Shown here piece after piece: positions 5,468 through 14,174 of a stretch of DNA of 64,000 nucleotides. Origin of the DNA: Chloroflexota bacterium (GTDB lineage: Bacteria; Chloroflexota; Dehalococcoidia; JACPQK01); assembly GCA_016190505.1 (NCBI GenBank), contig JACPQM010000069.1, positions 1 through 64,000 of the forward strand, read 5' to 3'. A program made the translations under genes and the position numbers. The notes beneath the pieces are model-generated. The model was not told the DNA's origin. It did no database searches and was given only the letters and a program-made list of their open reading frames with translations. Each line of letters begins with the position of its first letter. The first letter of the stretch is position 1.

Positions 5468-5515
5468 TGGCGTCCCTGGTGGGATTCGAACCCACGGCCC
5501 GCTGCTTAGAAGGCA
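5468..5515. repeat. attL-like 48-bp direct repeat (tRNA-Arg 3' end duplicate)
   Basis: tggcgtccctggtgggattcgaacccacggcccgctgcttagaaggca, identical to 14099-14146. Confidence 0.93.
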
Positions 5516-6582
5516 CAGGCCCCGGCACTCCTATCTACCGGGACACCCCCCTAATCCAGGGGGGGCGGCTGCTTTTACCAAATCAGCCCCCAATCGTCAT
5601 GGACGGGGCGCACCACCAGCGCCTACACTGTCGCCAGCAGGAGCCGCTGGTGACAACACTCGCCGAAGGATTAACCGCCTATCGAATATGCGCCCAGGCC
5701 GAGGGCAAGAGCCCCCAGACTATCCGCTGGGTAACCCAGGGGGTGGGCTACTTCAGGGACTTCTTGGGCGGCAACCCGGCTATTGGGGACATTACCGGGC
5801 AGGACCTGCGGCGCTTCATCCTGGCCTGCCAGGGCAGCACCAAGTACGCCAGGCATCCCACCACCAAGCCGCAGGCTGTGAAGCTCTCCCCCCAGTCCGT
5901 GGAGACCTACGCCAGGGCGATCCGGGCCTTCTTCAGCTACCTGAACCGGGAAGAGCTGATTGGCGATAACCCCATGCAGAAGGTCAAGATGCCCAAGGTG
6001 CCCAAGAAGGTGGTGCCCATCCTGGACGCGAAAGGGCTGGAGAAGCTCCTGGCCCAGCCGGACCAGAAGACAGCCACCGGCTTCCGGGATTACACGCTCA
6101 TGCTGGCGTATGTGGACACCGGGGCCCGGCTAAATGAGCTGGTCAACCTGGACGAGGGCGATGTGGACCTGGACAACGGGGTGTTCCGGGTGATGGGCAA
6201 AGGCGCCCGGGAACGCCTTCTCCCCTTCGGGCTGAAGTTGACCAAGGCCCTCCTGAAGTACCGGGTCCGTTTCCGGCCCCAGCCCTTGGCCAACGGCCGC
6301 TTCTTTGTGAGCCACGACGGCAGGCCCCTAACCGGCCGGAGAGTGGAGCGCATTATCTCCGGCTACGCCCAAAAAGCGGGCCTGAAAGGGCGTGTTTACC
6401 CCCACTTGCTGCGCCATACGTCAAGCGTGCTCTACCTGCGCAACGGGGGGGACCCCTTCTCGCTTCAGAAAAAGCTGGGGCACTCCTCGTTGGCCATGAC
6501 GAGACACTATTCAGAACTGGCCGACGGCGACGTGCGGGCGGCCCACCTGAAGTTTGGTGTGGTGGACCGGCTGGGAATCTAG
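5470..6582 (+). CDS. Tyrosine recombinase/integrase; open through the att core. No good start codon inside the integrated copy (TTG 5437 or internal ATG 5599)
   Basis: N-terminal SAM-like domain EGLTAYRICAQAEGKSPQTIRW; catalytic motifs DTGARLNELVNL, HLLRHTSSVLYL, LGHSSLAMTRHYSEL. Confidence 0.92.
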   Translation, partial: ASLVGFEPTARCLEGTGPGTPIYRDTPLIQGGRLLLPNQPPIVMDGAHHQRLHCRQQEPLVTTLAEGLTAYRICAQAEGKSPQTIRWVTQGVGYFRDFLGGNPAIGDITGQDLRRFILACQGSTKYARHPTTKPQAVKLSPQSVETYARAIRAFFSYLNREELIGDNPMQKVKMPKVPKKVVPILDAKGLEKLLAQPDQKTATGFRDYTLMLAYVDTGARLNELVNLDEGDVDLDNGVFRVMGKGARERLLPFGLKLTKALLKYRVRFRPQPLANGRFFVSHDGRPLTGRRVERIISGYAQKAGLKGRVYPHLLRHTSSVLYLRNGGDPFSLQKKLGHSSLAMTRHYSELADGDVRAAHLKFGVVDRLGI

Positions 6583-6986
6583 CTGGCCCAGTGTGCCCGG
6601 ACCACGGCGCCGGATAGCTCGGCCCACATCACCACGGTCACATGGGGCGGGCCATCGGGCGACTGCCGCTGGGTGAGCTGGCCCACATACACCCGCGCAC
6701 TAACTACACCCGACACCAGCTCGACACTGACACCCTGCGTCCCCCTGGGCGCCACGTAGCGCCCCGGCTCGTCGCTCAGCGCCCCCTGGTAGCCTGGTAG
6801 TGCCCCTGTGACCAGGATGTCCCCGTCTACGTACTCGATGCCCAGCACGTGCTCCCCGCGCAGCACGCCATCATACAGACGCCGCGCGCTCTTGAACCGG
6901 GCGCCGCCCTCGACGCCCTCCAGGGCCTCGAGGGCCTGCCACAGGCCGCCGTTTTTGACGAAAGTGCTCAAAATCGTCATGGACAC
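6579..6986 (-). CDS. Hypothetical protein (135 aa), element cargo
   Basis: Complete ORF divergent from 7045; no family recognised. Confidence 0.5.
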   Translation of the reverse strand: MSMTILSTFVKNGGLWQALEALEGVEGGARFKSARRLYDGVLRGEHVLGIEYVDGDILVTGALPGYQGALSDEPGRYVAPRGTQGVSVELVSGVVSARVYVGQLTQRQSPDGPPHVTVVMWAELSGAVVRAHWAS

Positions 6987-7044
6987 CAGTCTAGGAGCGT
7001 GCCTAGTCTATTGTCAAGACGTGCTCAGAAAGGAGGCCCTAGCG

Positions 7045-7242
7045 ATGCCAGTCGTGTTCAAGCGGCGGCTAATGACCATGGGCGCCGGCTCTCTAGTCAT
7101 CACCGTCCCCAAGTGCTGGGCCGAGTTCTATCAACTACGGGCCGGCGATTCCGTGCAAGTGATCGTGGCGGACGATCTGCGGGTACTCCCTGCGCCCCGG
7201 GGGACCCGGCCCGCCGAATCCGAGCCAGCCCCAGCGGCCTAG
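7045..7242 (+). CDS. AbrB/SpoVT-like small DNA-binding protein (65 aa)
   Basis: RRLMTMGAGSLVITVPKCWAEFYQLRAGDSVQVIVADD swapped-hairpin pattern; AGGAGG 14 nt upstream of ATG. Confidence 0.7.
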   Translation: MPVVFKRRLMTMGAGSLVITVPKCWAEFYQLRAGDSVQVIVADDLRVLPAPRGTRPAESEPAPAA

Positions 7243-7298
7243 CCAAAAACATAGGCCCCGGGGGCCGGCGAGCTCCCGGGGCCAGAGAGGAGACGATC

Positions 7299-8183
7299 AT
7301 GCCGTCCCCCGGATACATACAGTCTATCACAGACCCGCCCTGCCTGGCGGCGGCCGAGAGCTACGTCGCCAGGGGCTGGAGCGTGGTCCCCATTATCCCC
7401 GGCCTGAAGTTCCCCCCTATCGCCTGGACGCCCTACCGGACACGTCAGCCGACTGACCGGGAGATCCGTTTCTGGTGGCGTAGCTGGCCCGGCGCCAACA
7501 TCGCCGTGGTCACCGGTATGCTATCTGGCGTCATGGTTCTGGACTGCGACCGCAAGTCTGGCGGCCCAGCCAGTCTGGATGCGCTGTTCGCGGAGGGAAA
7601 GCGCCTCCCCCTGGGGCCAGTCGTACGCACCGCAAGGGGCGGCAGCCATTTCTATTTTGCCGCGAGGCCAGGGGTCGGGTCTCGGGCGGGCATCCTGAAT
7701 GATCGGGGGCTGCCTGGTCTGGATTTCAGGGGCGACCCTGGTCTGGCTGTGCTGCCGCCCAGCCGGACGCCCGCGGGCTACTACCAGTGGCTGGTCACGC
7801 CCGACGAGGAGCCCCTGCCCGAGATTCCCGCCTGGCTCCTTGAGGTGGCGCGCCCCGTGTCCAAAGCACGCCCGGCCTACGCCGGCCCCCCGTCGCCGTG
7901 GTTGCGCCCTGTGTTCATCGCCCTGGTGGACTGGCTGGAGGTCCATGGCTATCGGCCGCGCCAGGGCAACGCCGGGAATTGGGTTGCGTGGTGCCCGCTG
8001 TGCACCGTCCCGGAGAGAGGGCCGTCCTTGAGCTTACACGCGGACCGTGGCTTTATGTGTTTTTGCGGCTGCGGGTCGGGCGGGCTGGTGGCCCTGGCCC
8101 GCAAGCTGGGCATCGCCGTCCCCGGCAGGGTGAGATGGCGCCACGGCCATCCCATCCTACCCACTATCGAGGTGGGGCCATGA
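7299..8183 (+). CDS. Bifunctional DNA primase/polymerase (prim-pol) domain protein
   Basis: AAAESYVARGWSVVPIIPGLKFPPIAW, ANIAVVTGMLSGVMVLDCD, GGSHFYFAARPG, GLDFRGDPGLAVLPPS: prim-pol hallmarks; AGAGAGGAGA upstream. Confidence 0.87.
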   Translation: MPSPGYIQSITDPPCLAAAESYVARGWSVVPIIPGLKFPPIAWTPYRTRQPTDREIRFWWRSWPGANIAVVTGMLSGVMVLDCDRKSGGPASLDALFAEGKRLPLGPVVRTARGGSHFYFAARPGVGSRAGILNDRGLPGLDFRGDPGLAVLPPSRTPAGYYQWLVTPDEEPLPEIPAWLLEVARPVSKARPAYAGPPSPWLRPVFIALVDWLEVHGYRPRQGNAGNWVAWCPLCTVPERGPSLSLHADRGFMCFCGCGSGGLVALARKLGIAVPGRVRWRHGHPILPTIEVGP

Positions 8184-10354
8184 TCCTGCGGGCGATCGGA
8201 TTCGTCCCGAACGGCCGCAGCGACCTGGTTGGCACGATTGTCGTCTGCTCGGATCAGGGGACATCCCTTGGCGTCGAGCGCACGGGCAACTACTCGCGCG
8301 ACGCCTACGACGAGCTCGCGCGGATAGCACGACGCAAAGGGCTGGATATGGAGGTGCTCGACGCCAAGTTTTGGGATCTCATGGCCCAGCTCCGGGCCGG
8401 GGCCGACCAGGCCATAGCCGCCGGCGCCCCCCAGCGGGAGCACACGCGCCCCGTGGTCCAGGTGGCCGACCGCCCCCTGCGGGACATCGAGGACGAGAGC
8501 TGGGCGCTGATCGGGGCGGCGAATACCCTGGACCCACGATACTTTCTCTTCGGCGATGCGCTGACCGATATAGACAGCGCGGTGGACCCCATCCGCCCAC
8601 GTCTCTTGTCGCTGCCGTCGCTGCGCCACCACCTGGACCGGTTGGGTGACTACCTGGTCCGCCGGGGGGACGACGACCGGCCGGTCGCGCCGCCGAAAGA
8701 TGTGGTCGAGATGATGCTGTCTGTGGTGCCGGGGACACTGCCCCACCTGGTGGGCGTGGTGGCCACCCCCTACGTCGCGCCCGACGGCGACATCGTGTCC
8801 GCGCCCGGCTACTGCGCCGCCACAGGACTCTACCAGGCGACGAGTGACCTCAGCATGCCCCCCGTGCCCGCTGCGCCCACGGCCGGCGACATGGCTGAGG
8901 CCAGGAGGTTGTTGTTGGACGAATTGCTCGGCGATTTCCCGTTTGCGGGGCAATCGGACCGGGCCCACGCATTAGCCGCTCTATTAAACCCAATAGTGAG
9001 GCCTTTGGTGTCCGGGCCCACGCCGCTGATGATGATCGAAGCCCCGATCGAAGGATCGGGCAAGGGCTTGCTCGCCGCCTTGGTTGCCATCATCGCCACC
9101 GGCGGCCCGCCGGCCGTGTTGGCCGAGGGCTCGAATGGGGAAGAGTGGCGCAAGCGACTGACTTCGGCGTTGGTGGCGTCGCCCGTGGTCATCCTGTTGG
9201 ACAACATCAAGGCCAAGCTGGACAGCGGTGCGCTGTCGTCGGCACTCACCGCGGTGACCTGGTGCGACCGCCCCATGGGCCTTTCCCGCCTGGTGTCCGT
9301 CCCCGTACGGTGCACCTGGATGGCCACGGCGAACAATCCGAGTTATTCCGGCGAGATCGCCCGCCGCGTGGTGCGCATTCGTCTGGATTCGGGCGCCGAG
9401 CGCCCCTGGGAGCGGACTGGCTGGCGCCACGAACTGCCCCAGTGGGCTCTGGAGGAGCGGCCCAGGCTGCTCTGGGGACTCCTGACGCTGGCGCGCCACT
9501 GGGTGGCCGCCGGCAGGCCCCCGGGCAGAGAGATCATGGGCAGCTATGAGACCTGGGCCGCGGTCATCGGGGGTATCCTGGGCGCGGCGGGTGTGCCTGG
9601 CCTGCTCGGCAATCGAGTCGAGGTGTACGCCCAGGCGGAGAACGATCTCGAGGCCTGGCGCGAGCTGGTTGAGCTGTGGTGGCGCACCTACAGCGCCAGG
9701 CCCGTAGGGATAGCCCAGCTATTCGACCTGGCCGCCTCCCGAAAGCTACTCACCGACCTGCGCGGCGACCGCAGCGACCGGGGGGCGCGGACCGCCTTGG
9801 GGGCAGAGCTGGCCCGCGTGCGGGGCAGAGTGATCGGCCAGTGGAGAATCCTGGACGCCGGGGTGGACGCGCATACCCACGTGGCCCGGTACGCGCTCCA
9901 GCGCCTGGAGCCGCCACACTCCCCGGATCTCCCCGTGTGCGGGACGCCTGGCGAGACCTCGTGCGAGCCCCCGGATCCCCCCGTGTGCGAAATGCCTTCC
10001 GGCGCGGTGTCCGATCAGGTCTCAGGTCTCGCCAGGTCTCGCACCCAAAGCTGCGCTGAATCTGGCGAGACCTTCAAAGGTCTCGCACAAGGTCTCGCAC
10101 AAGGTCTCGCAGATTCAGCGCAAAGCTACCAGGACCCCGATTGCGAGACCTTGCGAGACCTGAGACCCGATCTTATGCGCGGGGAAAACGAAGATCACAC
10201 ACACCCCGACGCGGGGCATCGCGGGGCCGGCGACCGCTGCCTGAAGCGCCCCGGCTCACGGTGCTCCCTGCCAGGGGTGTTCGGTGTCTGCCACTTCGAC
10301 GACGCCGACTGTGGTTTTAGACAGGAGGACATCTATGGCGATCCTGATAGCTGA
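8180..10354 (+). CDS. Large ATPase/helicase-like replication protein
   Basis: Start overlaps prim-pol stop (ATGA); Walker A-like EAPIEGSGKGLLA, Walker B-like VVILLDNI, WMATANNPSYSGEIARRVVRIRLD; low-complexity C-terminal tail encoded by the repeat cluster. Confidence 0.8.
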   Translation: MILRAIGFVPNGRSDLVGTIVVCSDQGTSLGVERTGNYSRDAYDELARIARRKGLDMEVLDAKFWDLMAQLRAGADQAIAAGAPQREHTRPVVQVADRPLRDIEDESWALIGAANTLDPRYFLFGDALTDIDSAVDPIRPRLLSLPSLRHHLDRLGDYLVRRGDDDRPVAPPKDVVEMMLSVVPGTLPHLVGVVATPYVAPDGDIVSAPGYCAATGLYQATSDLSMPPVPAAPTAGDMAEARRLLLDELLGDFPFAGQSDRAHALAALLNPIVRPLVSGPTPLMMIEAPIEGSGKGLLAALVAIIATGGPPAVLAEGSNGEEWRKRLTSALVASPVVILLDNIKAKLDSGALSSALTAVTWCDRPMGLSRLVSVPVRCTWMATANNPSYSGEIARRVVRIRLDSGAERPWERTGWRHELPQWALEERPRLLWGLLTLARHWVAAGRPPGREIMGSYETWAAVIGGILGAAGVPGLLGNRVEVYAQAENDLEAWRELVELWWRTYSARPVGIAQLFDLAASRKLLTDLRGDRSDRGARTALGAELARVRGRVIGQWRILDAGVDAHTHVARYALQRLEPPHSPDLPVCGTPGETSCEPPDPPVCEMPSGAVSDQVSGLARSRTQSCAESGETFKGLAQGLAQGLADSAQSYQDPDCETLRDLRPDLMRGENEDHTHPDAGHRGAGDRCLKRPGSRCSLPGVFGVCHFDDADCGFRQEDIYGDPDS
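9951..10172. repeat. Iteron-like cluster: nine GGTCTCGC octamers (5 forward, 4 reverse) in nested inverted repeats
   Basis: Forward at 10025, 10035, 10079, 10091, 10103; reverse at 9951, 10065, 10143, 10153. Outer arms 10013-10042/10143-10172 (about 28/30 matches); inner arms 10053-10074/10101-10121. Confidence 0.9.
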
Positions 10355-10613
10355 GCGGGGGCGCTGGTATTCTGGCGCTATCGCCCGAATGGGGCCGAAA
10401 TTTGGCTTCGTATCTACTTTCGAAGGGGATGCTTACTTGCTACGCTCGGCGTGCTGGCGCTCTGGGATTTCTTGGGACAACTTAGCTGAAGGCGACGAGC
10501 TACTTTTTTTGGGGATCCCGGGCACCGACCGAGTTTACGAGTTTCGGCGGCTGAGGCCGCTTGCCGAGCGCGTGGTAAGTCTGGACAGGCAAAAGCGGGG
10601 CAAAGGCACTTGA
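10335..10613 (+). CDS. Small OB-fold/cold-shock-like protein (tentative)
   Basis: AGGAGG before ATG; WYSGAIARMGPKFGFVSTFEGDAYLLRSACWRSGISWDNLAEGDELLF resembles the CSD layout GxVxxxxxxxGFGFI..GDxFxH...LxxGxxVxF. Confidence 0.5.
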   Translation: MAILIAERGRWYSGAIARMGPKFGFVSTFEGDAYLLRSACWRSGISWDNLAEGDELLFLGIPGTDRVYEFRRLRPLAERVVSLDRQKRGKGT

Positions 10614-10861
10614 CTTTTTTTCACGAGGGCACCAATGATTTAGACGTGGTGCTAGGATTGGTGCGGTTGGCGGTCCGCCTCAATATCATACGCGAGGCAG
10701 TCGAGACGGCTTTCGGCTTGCCCCGCCCCCCGGCGAGGCAAGCCGACTCGGCACGCCCTCGCCTCCCGGTGCCGGTGAGAGACTTCCTCCCCAGTTTACA
10801 CATCTCTGAGGGGGCCCCCGAAAGCCCTATCCGTAAGGCCCCCACCAGGAGGCCCAAATGA
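10610..10861 (+). CDS. Hypothetical protein (83 aa), TTG start overlapping upstream stop
   Basis: TTGA overlap with the preceding CDS. Confidence 0.35.
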   Translation: MTFFHEGTNDLDVVLGLVRLAVRLNIIREAVETAFGLPRPPARQADSARPRLPVPVRDFLPSLHISEGAPESPIRKAPTRRPK

Positions 10862-11194
10862 AACTGTGGCGTTCCGCTTATCCTTGGGGCCGCCTCTCGG
10901 CGCCAACCGAGATGTGTGGTCCTGGGGGTGTGCTAGCTGGCCGTGCAGGGGTGTTCGGCGGTCGATCCGGGCATCTGCCCACGTCAAGGGCACAGACGGC
11001 CCTCACCCGGCCGACGCTGCCTGCGGTCTCCCCTGGTCTTGGCGGATTGGAGAGAAGACCCTGCGAGTTGCCTGTCATAGCTTACAGGCGGGCGGCGGAA
11101 CGCCTTGCCTTGCTCGCGCTTTGCATGGTGGTGAGTTCTCCAGAAATCGTATCTGTATACCGGCTCCTCGGCTAGTGCAACGAAGGAGTGCATT

Positions 11195-12385
11195 GTGAGC
11201 AGGGGCAAAAGGATTGACGACGCTACCCGGCGCAGGGCCAAGGACCTGCGGGCCGCGGGGCAGACGGTAGTTGACACGGCAAGGGAGCTGCGGATCAGCC
11301 CCAGGAGCGTTAAGTCTTTCTCCAGGGCGCCCCGACCCCCAGGCGCACCGGACCCGCCGGGCGACGGCGCTGAAGACGAGCTGTGCCAGGACCTGGCGCC
11401 CGGCGTCGAAACTGAGGATGGCCCTGTGGTCGAGGCGCCTTCAGAGTACGAGCTCCCGCCCCTGCCCACGCGGCCGCTGCCTCCAGCCTTGCCTGAGTTG
11501 ACCAAGGCCAGGCCCGATGCCCGCCTGGAGTCGGCCTTGTCCGCGCGGGCTGCTGCCCATGCGGAACAGGATGTTGAGGAATTAGACGATTACCGGCGCG
11601 AGAAGTTGAGGATTGAGCGCTTGCGTGCCGAAGCAGAGCTGGCCCGAGAGAAGCGGCAGGTTTTAGAGGGTGAGCTCGCGGTCCTTAGAGGACAACTGCT
11701 AGTCCGACAGTCCGACAGTCCGCAAGAGCCGGCGGATGACGGGCTGGGCCAGGCGCTTGTGACTGAAGTCAACCAGCTGCGGGAACAGTTGCGGAGCAAG
11801 GAGCTCGAGGTCCTCGAAGGCAAATTCAACGCCCAGGTGTCCGAGCTTCGGGCGGCGCAGAATCCCGCGGGCCGGACTGAGTGGGACATCATGGCCCTGG
11901 GCATAACCCGCCTGTCCGACCTGGTGGGCGAGCTCGGGCGGGACCTGCGGGCTTACGCCTTGGGCCAAATGGCCAAGCAGGACCTGGCGCCGGGCCACCG
12001 GACTACGGAAGAACGCGATCTCCTGGGCCGGCAGCTCGTCGGGCGACTGGAAGGCAAGCCCCAAGTCACGCCCATGGTCCTGCGGGCATCTCGTACGACT
12101 GTCACATGCCAGAGCTGTGCATCAAGCTTCGCGGTTGATGTGGCTGCTCTGAAGCTTGAAGCAGCCGGCGGCAGTGGCTACCTCAAATGCCCCGCGTGCT
12201 CGTTTTTGTTGGACGCCTTTCCCCTGCTCGGCCAAGCCGGGAGTGCCCAAAAGGGCAACGGTCAGGATGATCAAAAGGCGTGGGCCGCTTGTCCGGACTA
12301 CAGCCCACGCGCGGTAGAGTTCGGGTGTAATCCCAGTGGCTACCCGGAGCCTAAGTGCGCTTCATGCCCGGCGTTCAAGGCCTAG
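11195..12385 (+). CDS. HTH + coiled-coil + zinc-ribbon protein, unknown function
   Basis: GTG start with AAGGAG; DDATRRRAKDLRAAGQTVVDTARELRISPRSVKSF (HTH-like), Glu/Arg-rich coiled coil, two CxxC pairs (TCQSCASS...LKCPACS), Cys-rich C-terminus. Confidence 0.65.
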   Translation: MSRGKRIDDATRRRAKDLRAAGQTVVDTARELRISPRSVKSFSRAPRPPGAPDPPGDGAEDELCQDLAPGVETEDGPVVEAPSEYELPPLPTRPLPPALPELTKARPDARLESALSARAAAHAEQDVEELDDYRREKLRIERLRAEAELAREKRQVLEGELAVLRGQLLVRQSDSPQEPADDGLGQALVTEVNQLREQLRSKELEVLEGKFNAQVSELRAAQNPAGRTEWDIMALGITRLSDLVGELGRDLRAYALGQMAKQDLAPGHRTTEERDLLGRQLVGRLEGKPQVTPMVLRASRTTVTCQSCASSFAVDVAALKLEAAGGSGYLKCPACSFLLDAFPLLGQAGSAQKGNGQDDQKAWAACPDYSPRAVEFGCNPSGYPEPKCASCPAFKA

Positions 12386-12386
12386 T

Positions 12387-12566
12387 ATGGCATTCGTCAG
12401 GCTGAAACAGCGCAAAGGGCGGACCTACGCTTACTGGTGCGAGTCGTACAGGGACCCAGCTTCTGGCCAGCCCCGCCAACGAGTTTTGCGCTACCTGGGC
12501 GTAGTGCCCACTGGACGGGCGCCCCTGGCGGCCGCCGGGCCACATTCGAGCGCACGGGTCCTGTAG
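12387..12566 (+). CDS. Small protein (59 aa) resembling the N-terminal arm of some transposases
   Basis: MAFVRLKQRKGRTYAYWCESYRDPASGQPRQRVLRYLG. Confidence 0.45.
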   Translation: MAFVRLKQRKGRTYAYWCESYRDPASGQPRQRVLRYLGVVPTGRAPLAAAGPHSSARVL

Positions 12567-12617
12567 TGCCCATTCCGGGCGCCCCCAAAGCTGAGTGAGC
12601 CAACAAAAGGAGAGATT

Positions 12618-13091
12618 GTGTATTCCGCCTTACCACTTCTCGACGGCTGGAGCCGGCATTTTTACACGAAGTTTTTTACCCAGACTATCCCGCGTGGGGC
12701 GTCCCTGGCCCTGCTTGAAGAGCGACAGCCCGGCTGGTGGATCGCGCTCGGGGGGCTGGTAGATCGCAACGATGCCGTTATCGTGGTGGAGATGGATGGC
12801 CGGCTGGCGTTGCAAGCCTCGGTTTCCGACCTCAACACAGCTTCCTGGACCTTGTGGAGCGCGGGCTTTCCCTATCTAGAGCAATATGACGTGGCCAACA
12901 GTCTCTACACGATTGGGTTTGCGCCCGCCGCGCCGATGCCTTTTCGGACCTTGAAGGTCTCTCTCAACAACCCGGCAACGAGTGACCTGCGACTGCTCTC
13001 TGTGATCGGGATGGCTGCGGTTATCGAGAATCCGGACGCGCTCCGGGCCTCTTACTCGACGCTACTCCGGGCGGACCAGGGGGCTAGCTAG
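12618..13091 (+). CDS. Hypothetical protein (157 aa), GTG start
   Basis: AAAGGAGA 6-12 nt before GTG; complete ORF. Confidence 0.5.
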   Translation: MYSALPLLDGWSRHFYTKFFTQTIPRGASLALLEERQPGWWIALGGLVDRNDAVIVVEMDGRLALQASVSDLNTASWTLWSAGFPYLEQYDVANSLYTIGFAPAAPMPFRTLKVSLNNPATSDLRLLSVIGMAAVIENPDALRASYSTLLRADQGAS

Positions 13092-13386
13092 CGCCCTCAC
13101 AAGCGCGCGGATGGCCCGCGCAGGGCTTCCTAGCGCCGACCACGCGGTTAGCCTGCAAGAGATCGGTGACCCTGGGCTGGCTGCAGCCCAGGCGTTGCAT
13201 AACCTCATCCACGCCAAGAGTTATAGTAGCTTTCGCATTATAACTAGCCATGCGGCGAGTGTAGCACGAAGAGTTATAGTTTACAAGCTAACAACACTCC
13301 TCGATGCGCAGGTTATTCCGCCAAGGGCGCTAGAGGCTGAGGACAGCCCGGGTGACCGCAACTTGTGGTCAGTGTGTACATTCACG

Positions 13387-13409
13387 ATACTGACCAATGT
13401 GGTCAGTAT
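13387..13409. promoter_or_regulatory. Putative operator: perfect 9-bp inverted repeat ATACTGACC-aatgt-GGTCAGTAT
   Basis: Further half-sites at 13367-13373 (GGTCAGT) and 13424-13430 (ACTGACC), the latter abutting the HTH start codon. Confidence 0.7.
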
Positions 13410-13431
13410 AACAGCTAGAGAGGACTGACCA

Positions 13432-13773
13432 ATGTTCATTGAAAGAACCTGTTCCATCCTGGCCAAGCGCCGCGAGCAGCGCCTGGCCACCGCCTGGAAG
13501 CTCTCCGCCCTGGGCTGGACCCAGGCAGAGATAGGGCAGATGGTCGGCACATCTCAGGACAGCATCTCCCTGGATTTACGAAAAACTTCAGACCTGAAGA
13601 AACTCGTAAATTCGGCCCTATCCTCTGGCCTGCCGGTGAGCGAAGTGGCCAAGCGCTTCAATCTGCCGCCCCTGCTGGTGCTGGCAGCATCCCTGGAGGC
13701 GAAGGGTGATCCGGCGCGGGCCTACAGCCCTAAGGCGGGCGGGCTTCAACATATAGTCCCCATAGCCATCTGA
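13432..13773 (+). CDS. HTH-type regulator (113 aa)
   Basis: RLATAWKLSALGWTQAEIGQMVGTSQDSISLDLRK HTH, preceded by palindromic operators. Confidence 0.65.
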   Translation: MFIERTCSILAKRREQRLATAWKLSALGWTQAEIGQMVGTSQDSISLDLRKTSDLKKLVNSALSSGLPVSEVAKRFNLPPLLVLAASLEAKGDPARAYSPKAGGLQHIVPIAI

Positions 13774-14022
13774 ATGAATCAGACAGAGGATAAATGGATA
13801 TATTCGACAGCGTGCACAACATGATAAATTGTGGTATCTTCGAGGTGTTCGACATACGAGCTTTGGCATTCAAGCCATTCGGACTAGCTTTGGCGAAAAG
13901 ATGGGGAGAAGGCCGAGACAGCCTCACGAAGGCCCTGGCGCCCGAAGGGGGCTGGTGTGCCCGGCGGGCGGTCCAGGCGGCATAAGCGGTAAGGACCCGA
14001 GAGCACCCACAAGGGGAAAACG

Positions 14023-14163
14023 ATGGCCAATAAGAGGGCGGCTGCTTTCACTGATTCAGATGTGCTTGCCCAGCTGGCAGAGCTGGTCCAAGCCAAGCTG
14101 GCGTCCCTGGTGGGATTCGAACCCACGGCCCGCTGCTTAGAAGGCAGCCGCTCTGTCCGCTGA
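14023..14163 (+). CDS. Short leader ORF reading into attR; predicted 5' exon-like part of the integrase in the excised circle
   Basis: AAGGGG upstream of ATG; MANKRAAAFTDSDVLAQLAELVQAKL-ASLVGFEPTARCLEG... in the same att frame as the integrase ORF at 5470. Confidence 0.6.
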   Translation: MANKRAAAFTDSDVLAQLAELVQAKLASLVGFEPTARCLEGSRSVR

Positions 14164-14174
14164 GCTACAGGGAC
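14099..14174 (-). tRNA. tRNA-Arg (anticodon TCT), CCA encoded
   Basis: Reverse complement GTCCCTGTAGCTCAGCGGACAGAGCGGCTGCCTTCTAAGCAGCGGGCCGTGGGTTCGAATCCCACCAGGGACGCCA folds as a cloverleaf; loop CTTCTAA. Confidence 0.95.

Follow-up and report, generated by a model that had tools for sequence, protein, structure and literature searches.

A tRNA-targeting integrative element of Dehalococcoidia with an integrase gene predicted to be longer in the circular than in the integrated state

In this study we describe what appears to be a state-dependent bacterial integrase: the circular form of the element would be the only one to encode a long form of the enzyme, while a short form would be encoded in the circular and the integrated state alike. 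We put the probability of this reading at roughly three in four. The element lies in a 64,000-nucleotide stretch of a Dehalococcoidia genome (the window), and we compared it with 11 relatives from other Dehalococcoidia, most of which carry an integrase 53-67% identical to that of the window; together these are the 12 members referred to below. Relatives with named records come from Chloroflexi/Dehalococcoidia MAGs, the class to which the genome of the window belongs as well. The fused reading frame, its conservation and both start codons can be read directly in the DNA, whereas the two proteins and their roles are predictions.

The element measures 8.7 kb (about 5468-14146) and is flanked by an exact 48-bp direct repeat (att). 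This repeat coincides with the 3' half of a minus-strand tRNA-Arg(TCT) gene, from the anticodon arm to the CCA (ARAGORN). At the right junction an intact tRNA is restored, its 5' half being chromosomal and its 3' half supplied by the element, as in tRNA-targeting integrative elements. As part of the same overall reading, the element probably integrates through its own tyrosine integrase at the anticodon region of this gene. The left junction, too, was scored as a tRNA-Arg by ARAGORN (5468-5544, minus strand); a stretch of the element's leader that resembles a tRNA 5' half (GTCCCGGTAGATAGGAG), perhaps a remnant or a mimic, pairs there with most acceptor positions. The other genes of the element include one for a Prim-Pol primase and one for a large protein with matches to phage primase/polymerase families. 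A coiled-coil protein with Cys pairs (11195-12385) is weakly similar (BLASTP 4e-4) to one in the element of relative G044, which is only 2.9 kb long (L007:9865-12737) against 8.7 kb in the window. The sequence AATCGTCATGGAC occurs in the integrase leader (5590-5604) and again (6970-6984) over the start of a convergent ORF (6579-6986, minus strand), possibly as a shared operator. The features are collected in the table.

Table. Coordinates of the features of the element in the window
Feature	Position	Strand	Basis
attL copy of the 48-bp att	5468..5515	-	Exact match to 14099-14146; antisense to int
Leader, from att to the internal int start	5516..5649	+	int frame open; would encode roughly residues 42-86 of the long form
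Direct-repeat copy GGGCGGCTGCTTTTACCAAATCAG, candidate integrase-binding (core-like/arm-type) site	5563..5586	+	Repeat search; resembles tRNA anticodon-stem half-site
Shine-Dalgarno AGGAG of the short-form start	5639..5643	+	Sequence; Shine-Dalgarno kept in most relatives
Predicted integrase short form, int(C) of the split gene, GTG start, 310 aa	5650..6582	+	PF00589 4e-30; 58-68% identity to Dehalococcoidia relatives aligned at the same start; AF2 model
Shine-Dalgarno AAGGGG of the predicted long-form start	14011..14016	+	Sequence; same place in 5/5 other attR-side ends
int(N): ATG + 26 codons (MANKRAAAFTDSDVLAQLAELVQAKL) + att	14023..14163	+	Sequence; homologous peptide in G044, G012 and G412
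Second candidate binding-site copy, opposite side of the att core	14036..14059	+	83% repeat; tRNA anticodon-stem half-site 11/12
attR copy of the 48-bp att	14099..14146	-	Exact repeat of 5468-5515
Reconstituted intact tRNA-Arg(TCT)	14099..14174	-	ARAGORN; acceptor stem GTCCCTG/CAGGGAC paired

The initial annotation had noted that both copies of att are open in one and the same frame, and that the right copy is preceded by a Shine-Dalgarno sequence, an ATG and 26 codons. We found both points confirmed in the sequence. In the integrated state these codons form int(N), an ORF of 46 amino acids that closes with TGA; in the circle they are joined to the integrase gene (int). A simulated circle junction (14023-14146 joined to 5516-6582) gives a single ORF of 396 amino acids with the frame unshifted, in agreement with the length of about 396 that had been predicted. 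Its codons encode MANKRAAAFTDSDVLAQLAELVQAKL, then the translation of att, ASLVGFEPTARCLEG, then the leader and then the integrase, and the predicted long form is the short form plus 86 extra N-terminal residues. In our proposed mechanism attP would sit inside int, towards its 5' end. Translation of the circle from ATG 14023 would run through the 48-bp att and the 134-nt leader into int, and the product would consist of a 26-residue N-terminal peptide, a linker of about 60 residues encoded by att and leader, and an Xer-like integrase. On integration the first 26 codons and any signals that drive their expression would come to lie at the far end of the element, as the 46-aa stub. The catalytic gene would remain at the near end, where GTG 5650 would still give a complete short form. 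Hence the circle would make the long integrase and possibly the short one also, and the integrated element the short one only.

Because 40% of shuffles of the window's leader are open as well, the relatives are needed to judge the fusion. The attR-side end was found in five of them, and in all five a small ORF with a Shine-Dalgarno sequence reads through att in frame with the relative's own int. This brings the in-frame ends to 6/6 with the window included; for the five non-window ends alone, chance would give about 1/3 each and 0.4% jointly. The proposal that excision rebuilds a longer int with its own Shine-Dalgarno sequence and start is thereby upheld. In G044 (L007), where the att of 54 bp belongs to a tRNA-Lys(TTT), the Shine-Dalgarno sequence AGGGAGG, an ATG and MAKRLPALSKSQVLDQIADLLLSKLGEREKQ (MAKRLPALSKSQVLDQIADLLLSKL) precede the attR-side copy in frame. 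The corresponding in-frame stretches are MKKRAIALTNPQVVDQLCEAIISKLRSSD (MKKRAIALTNPQVVDQLCEAIISKL) in G012, whose 50-bp att at a tRNA-Arg has its two copies on different contigs, MEERVPDYHNSTSFQQLWDALGSKLIEAAQGS (MEERVPDYHNSTSFQQLWDALGSKL) in G412 at a tRNA-Lys, and MKSIGHDATAKRRPTAFGENSQEL in G212, where the tRNA is antisense as in the window. In G393 the in-frame ORF starts with TTG, and the two att copies differ by two bases. The att partners lie on separate contigs in G012, G212, G393 and G412. The bin of G412 holds six exact tRNA-Lys(TTT) 3' halves on six contigs (L087-L092), which suggests several elements sharing one target. On the 3.4-kb contig of G212 that carries int (L049, G212:C290) a CRISPR-like array with at least 10 repeats (GTTTCAATCCACGCCCCCGCGC) lies within about 3 kb of int.

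It might be argued that the arrangement is a coincidence, in which an antisense tRNA is open, as is often the case, an unrelated small ORF happens to lie in frame and int simply begins at GTG 5650. Some tRNA frames are indeed naturally open, and the window by itself is unremarkable. However, the six in-frame ends with their Shine-Dalgarno sequences occur across different tRNAs, both orientations and differing tRNA reading frames, and the fusion is open regardless. Across the 12 members, the 476 codons separating att from the int start are interrupted by a stop only once in the int frame, whereas the two alternative frames contain 36 and 26 stops. The leaders of 11 of the 12 members are open in the int frame, for which dinucleotide shuffles give P(>=11/12) = 2.6e-9, a figure that ignores kinship, so that the true one is weaker. 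The twelfth leader, that of G407, is closed by an in-frame stop, which would suit a coincidence, and its int frame is stopped in the tRNA half too. The fusion is thus not universal in the family; since the sister of G407, G036, is open, the closed frame resembles a loss. Taken together we consider a coincidence very improbable. As to orientation, the window and G212 have the tRNA antisense to int and the other close relatives (L007-L012) have it in the sense direction; despite these differences the crossover near the anticodon loop keeps a similar distance from int.

Leader sequences differ strongly between members, and their length ranges from 82 to 164 nt. Conservation of the leader as a protein was considered and rejected: its differences by codon position are nearly flat (212/165/205), and for this reason it resembles an open linker over DNA sites, not a domain. 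Among the N-terminal peptides of the window, G044 and G012, codon positions 1/2/3 show 31/16/45 differences, as is typical of a protein under selection; in the body of int they show 92/67/167. The N-terminal peptides of the window, G044, G012 and G412 align significantly, whereas any likeness of the G212 and G393 peptides to the others is marginal at most. These comparisons bear on the possibility that the small ORF is a regulatory leader, acting by translational coupling or anti-termination, and that only the short form ever serves as the active enzyme. Such a leader would agree with the fully conserved internal start, with the leader peptide sequence not being conserved, with the two of six N-terminal peptides without clear alignment and with a short form that is, as modelled, already a complete Xer-like enzyme. 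Yet coupling usually stops near the next start and needs no frame open into int, whereas the int frame is open in nearly all members, with 62 stops in the other two frames, and the N-terminal peptide is constrained as a protein in three members. We therefore regard a purely regulatory leader as unlikely.

The initial annotation had seen no convincing start before the catalytic body of int and had concluded that the integrated state is locked. Our analysis contradicts the first point and does not support the second. GTG 5650 follows AGGAG with a spacing of 6 nt and immediately precedes the first conserved residues. At this position all 12 members have exclusively ATG, GTG or TTG (shifted one codon on in G036); every valine is GTG and every leucine TTG, a choice that protein constraint does not require. 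GAGG or AGGAG is found upstream in most members and is absent in G044. The short form comprises a SAM-like core-binding domain and a tyrosine recombinase catalytic domain (PF00589, 4e-30, Pfam), with R160, H252, R255, H278 and Y287 invariant among the aligned members, as befits a tyrosine recombinase. Its 310 residues align over their full length with other members, and it is Xer-like by sequence (aligned along XerA/XerD) and by fold. Its AlphaFold2 model, of moderate confidence with a mean pLDDT of 75, opens with the core-binding helices, the first of which (helix 1) spans residues 4-17. GTG 5650 can thus open a complete two-domain integrase that could be translated in the integrated element, which probably retains a usable integrase. 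Because this complete enzyme has its own start, the core enzyme would lose nothing known to be needed upon integration. That integration removes the start and N-terminus holds for the long form, whose 26 codons are displaced, but an internal start remains.

These observations also bear on a suicidal lock as in SSV-type elements, in which integration would leave int with neither start nor promoter and would be irreversible without an outside integrase. Such a lock has archaeal precedent (PMC8371274), and once integrated the start, the Shine-Dalgarno sequence and the first 26 codons do lie at the opposite end. Consensus scans of the window on either side found no sigma-70-like site beside int, which in the integrated state would favour the lock, nor beside int(N). 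The scan of G044 gave no match, and the matches at G212 and G012, the only ones, are indistinguishable from chance. However, an internal start kept in all members, mostly with a Shine-Dalgarno sequence and right before a complete two-domain recombinase, is at odds with full inactivation. Moreover, int lies directly downstream of the tRNA in the sense-oriented relatives and could be transcribed from it; in the window this route is closed because the tRNA is antisense. We hold a lock to be improbable. Transcription from the tRNA has been suggested for int(C) of pTN3 (PMC8371274), and int transcription from an upstream tRNA was reported for ICEKp1-like elements (PMC13023037).

Returning to the state-dependent integrase, we infer production of both forms and an effect of the N-terminal peptide on the behaviour of the enzyme. 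The sequence GGGCGGCTGCTTT is present on either side of the att core (5563 and 14036), and relatives carry similar motifs at equivalent places, each akin to the half-site in the anticodon stem of the tRNA that the relative targets. The motif is mostly CTGCTT where the tRNA stem reads CTGCC (tRNA-Arg members and the tRNA-Lys of G044), and CTGATT where it reads CTGAC (tRNA-Lys of G412 and G081); single cases are weak, their score being reached by 0 to 100% of shuffles. We take these repeats as candidate integrase-binding sites. A tentative extension, which we think rather doubtful, is a switch of direction: the long form, made by the circle only, might favour integration, for example via the repeats flanking attP, and the short form might be poised for excision. 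If so, the recombination event would determine which form is produced, and a separate directionality factor would not be needed.

A possible trace of the circle was seen in G212. Two of its contigs, C342 (chromosome, att and leader) and C290 (att, leader and int), share an overlap of exactly 127 nt, and the first base of C290 is the point where the attL and the N-terminal-side sequences part. De Bruijn assemblers break a contig where a second sequence precedes a shared stretch. The break therefore fits an attP junction in the reads, since a second sequence preceding att and leader would break the assembly. However, the attR-side contig C60 is unbroken at att, unlike what would be expected for a well-covered circle, and a tandem copy would explain the break equally well, so that the trace is suggestive only. 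Searches of IMG/VR, plasmids and phages gave no close relative, and hence there was no unintegrated copy to read. Viral contigs scanned with a DNA motif yielded three matches, all without integrase context.

Self-gene-disrupting integrases of the SSV type (SSV1, pTN3, pT26-2) have been termed exclusively archaeal in a review (PMC8371274). The element described here resembles them in that attP lies at a tRNA 3' half and inside a tyrosine integrase gene, near the 5' end of that gene, and in that integration parts int(N) and int(C) to opposite ends of the element; the 396-aa ORF of the window is split in this way, and so are the fused frames of the five relatives. It differs in its bacterial host and in its integrase family, being Xer-like: a Pfam scan returned PF00589 and the SAM-like domain only, with no match to PF16795 (Phage_integr_3) at E <= 0.01. 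It also differs in an internal start with a conserved Shine-Dalgarno sequence that opens a complete two-domain enzyme, and in a tRNA that is sense or antisense to int among members. The resemblance to SSV-type integrases that had been proposed thus extends to the way of working, as far as the sequence tells, and not to family membership. We found no bacterial report of such integrases in the open-access literature, a search whose coverage leaves out most subscription papers.

Related principles are known from bacteria and their phages. In the mycobacteriophages BPs and Brujita attP lies inside a coding gene and integration alters the protein (integration-dependent immunity). There the repressor is changed and loses its 3' end, whereas in the window element it would be the integrase, which would lose its 5' end. 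Within the same bacterial class, the ssrA islands of Dehalococcoides with the serine integrase DsiB also have an att that overlaps an integrase frame open across the site, but with a serine instead of a tyrosine recombinase, with att at the 3' end of the gene rather than in its 5' part and with a tmRNA as target instead of a tRNA (PMC3146451). In ICEKp1-type elements, too, int lies at the tRNA-adjacent end, and excision there links the other end to int and alters its expression (PMC13023037); ICEclc has an outward-facing promoter, Pcirc (PMC9286271). In those two elements the switch is a promoter, whereas here the coding sequence itself appears to be changed, with a longer protein from the circle only.

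Self-splitting may extend to more distant integrases. Those of L050-L058 and L060 (39-49% identity) form tandem pairs about 2 kb apart, and in L051, L054-L056 and L058 the first of the pair lies beside an antisense tRNA into which the int frame is open. No int(N) was found for these tandem integrases, and no usable second tRNA copy (attR-side end) for the distant integrases linked to tRNA-Val. The N-terminal peptide showed no significant homology to the contiguous N-termini of L051-L053, L056 and L060.

In conclusion, the dead end and the two-enzyme switch, between which the choice has long been an open question, become testable here because the internal start is conserved as well. If this layout is indeed kept in a bacterial family whose integrase is of another lineage, the strategy would have arisen more than once in evolution.
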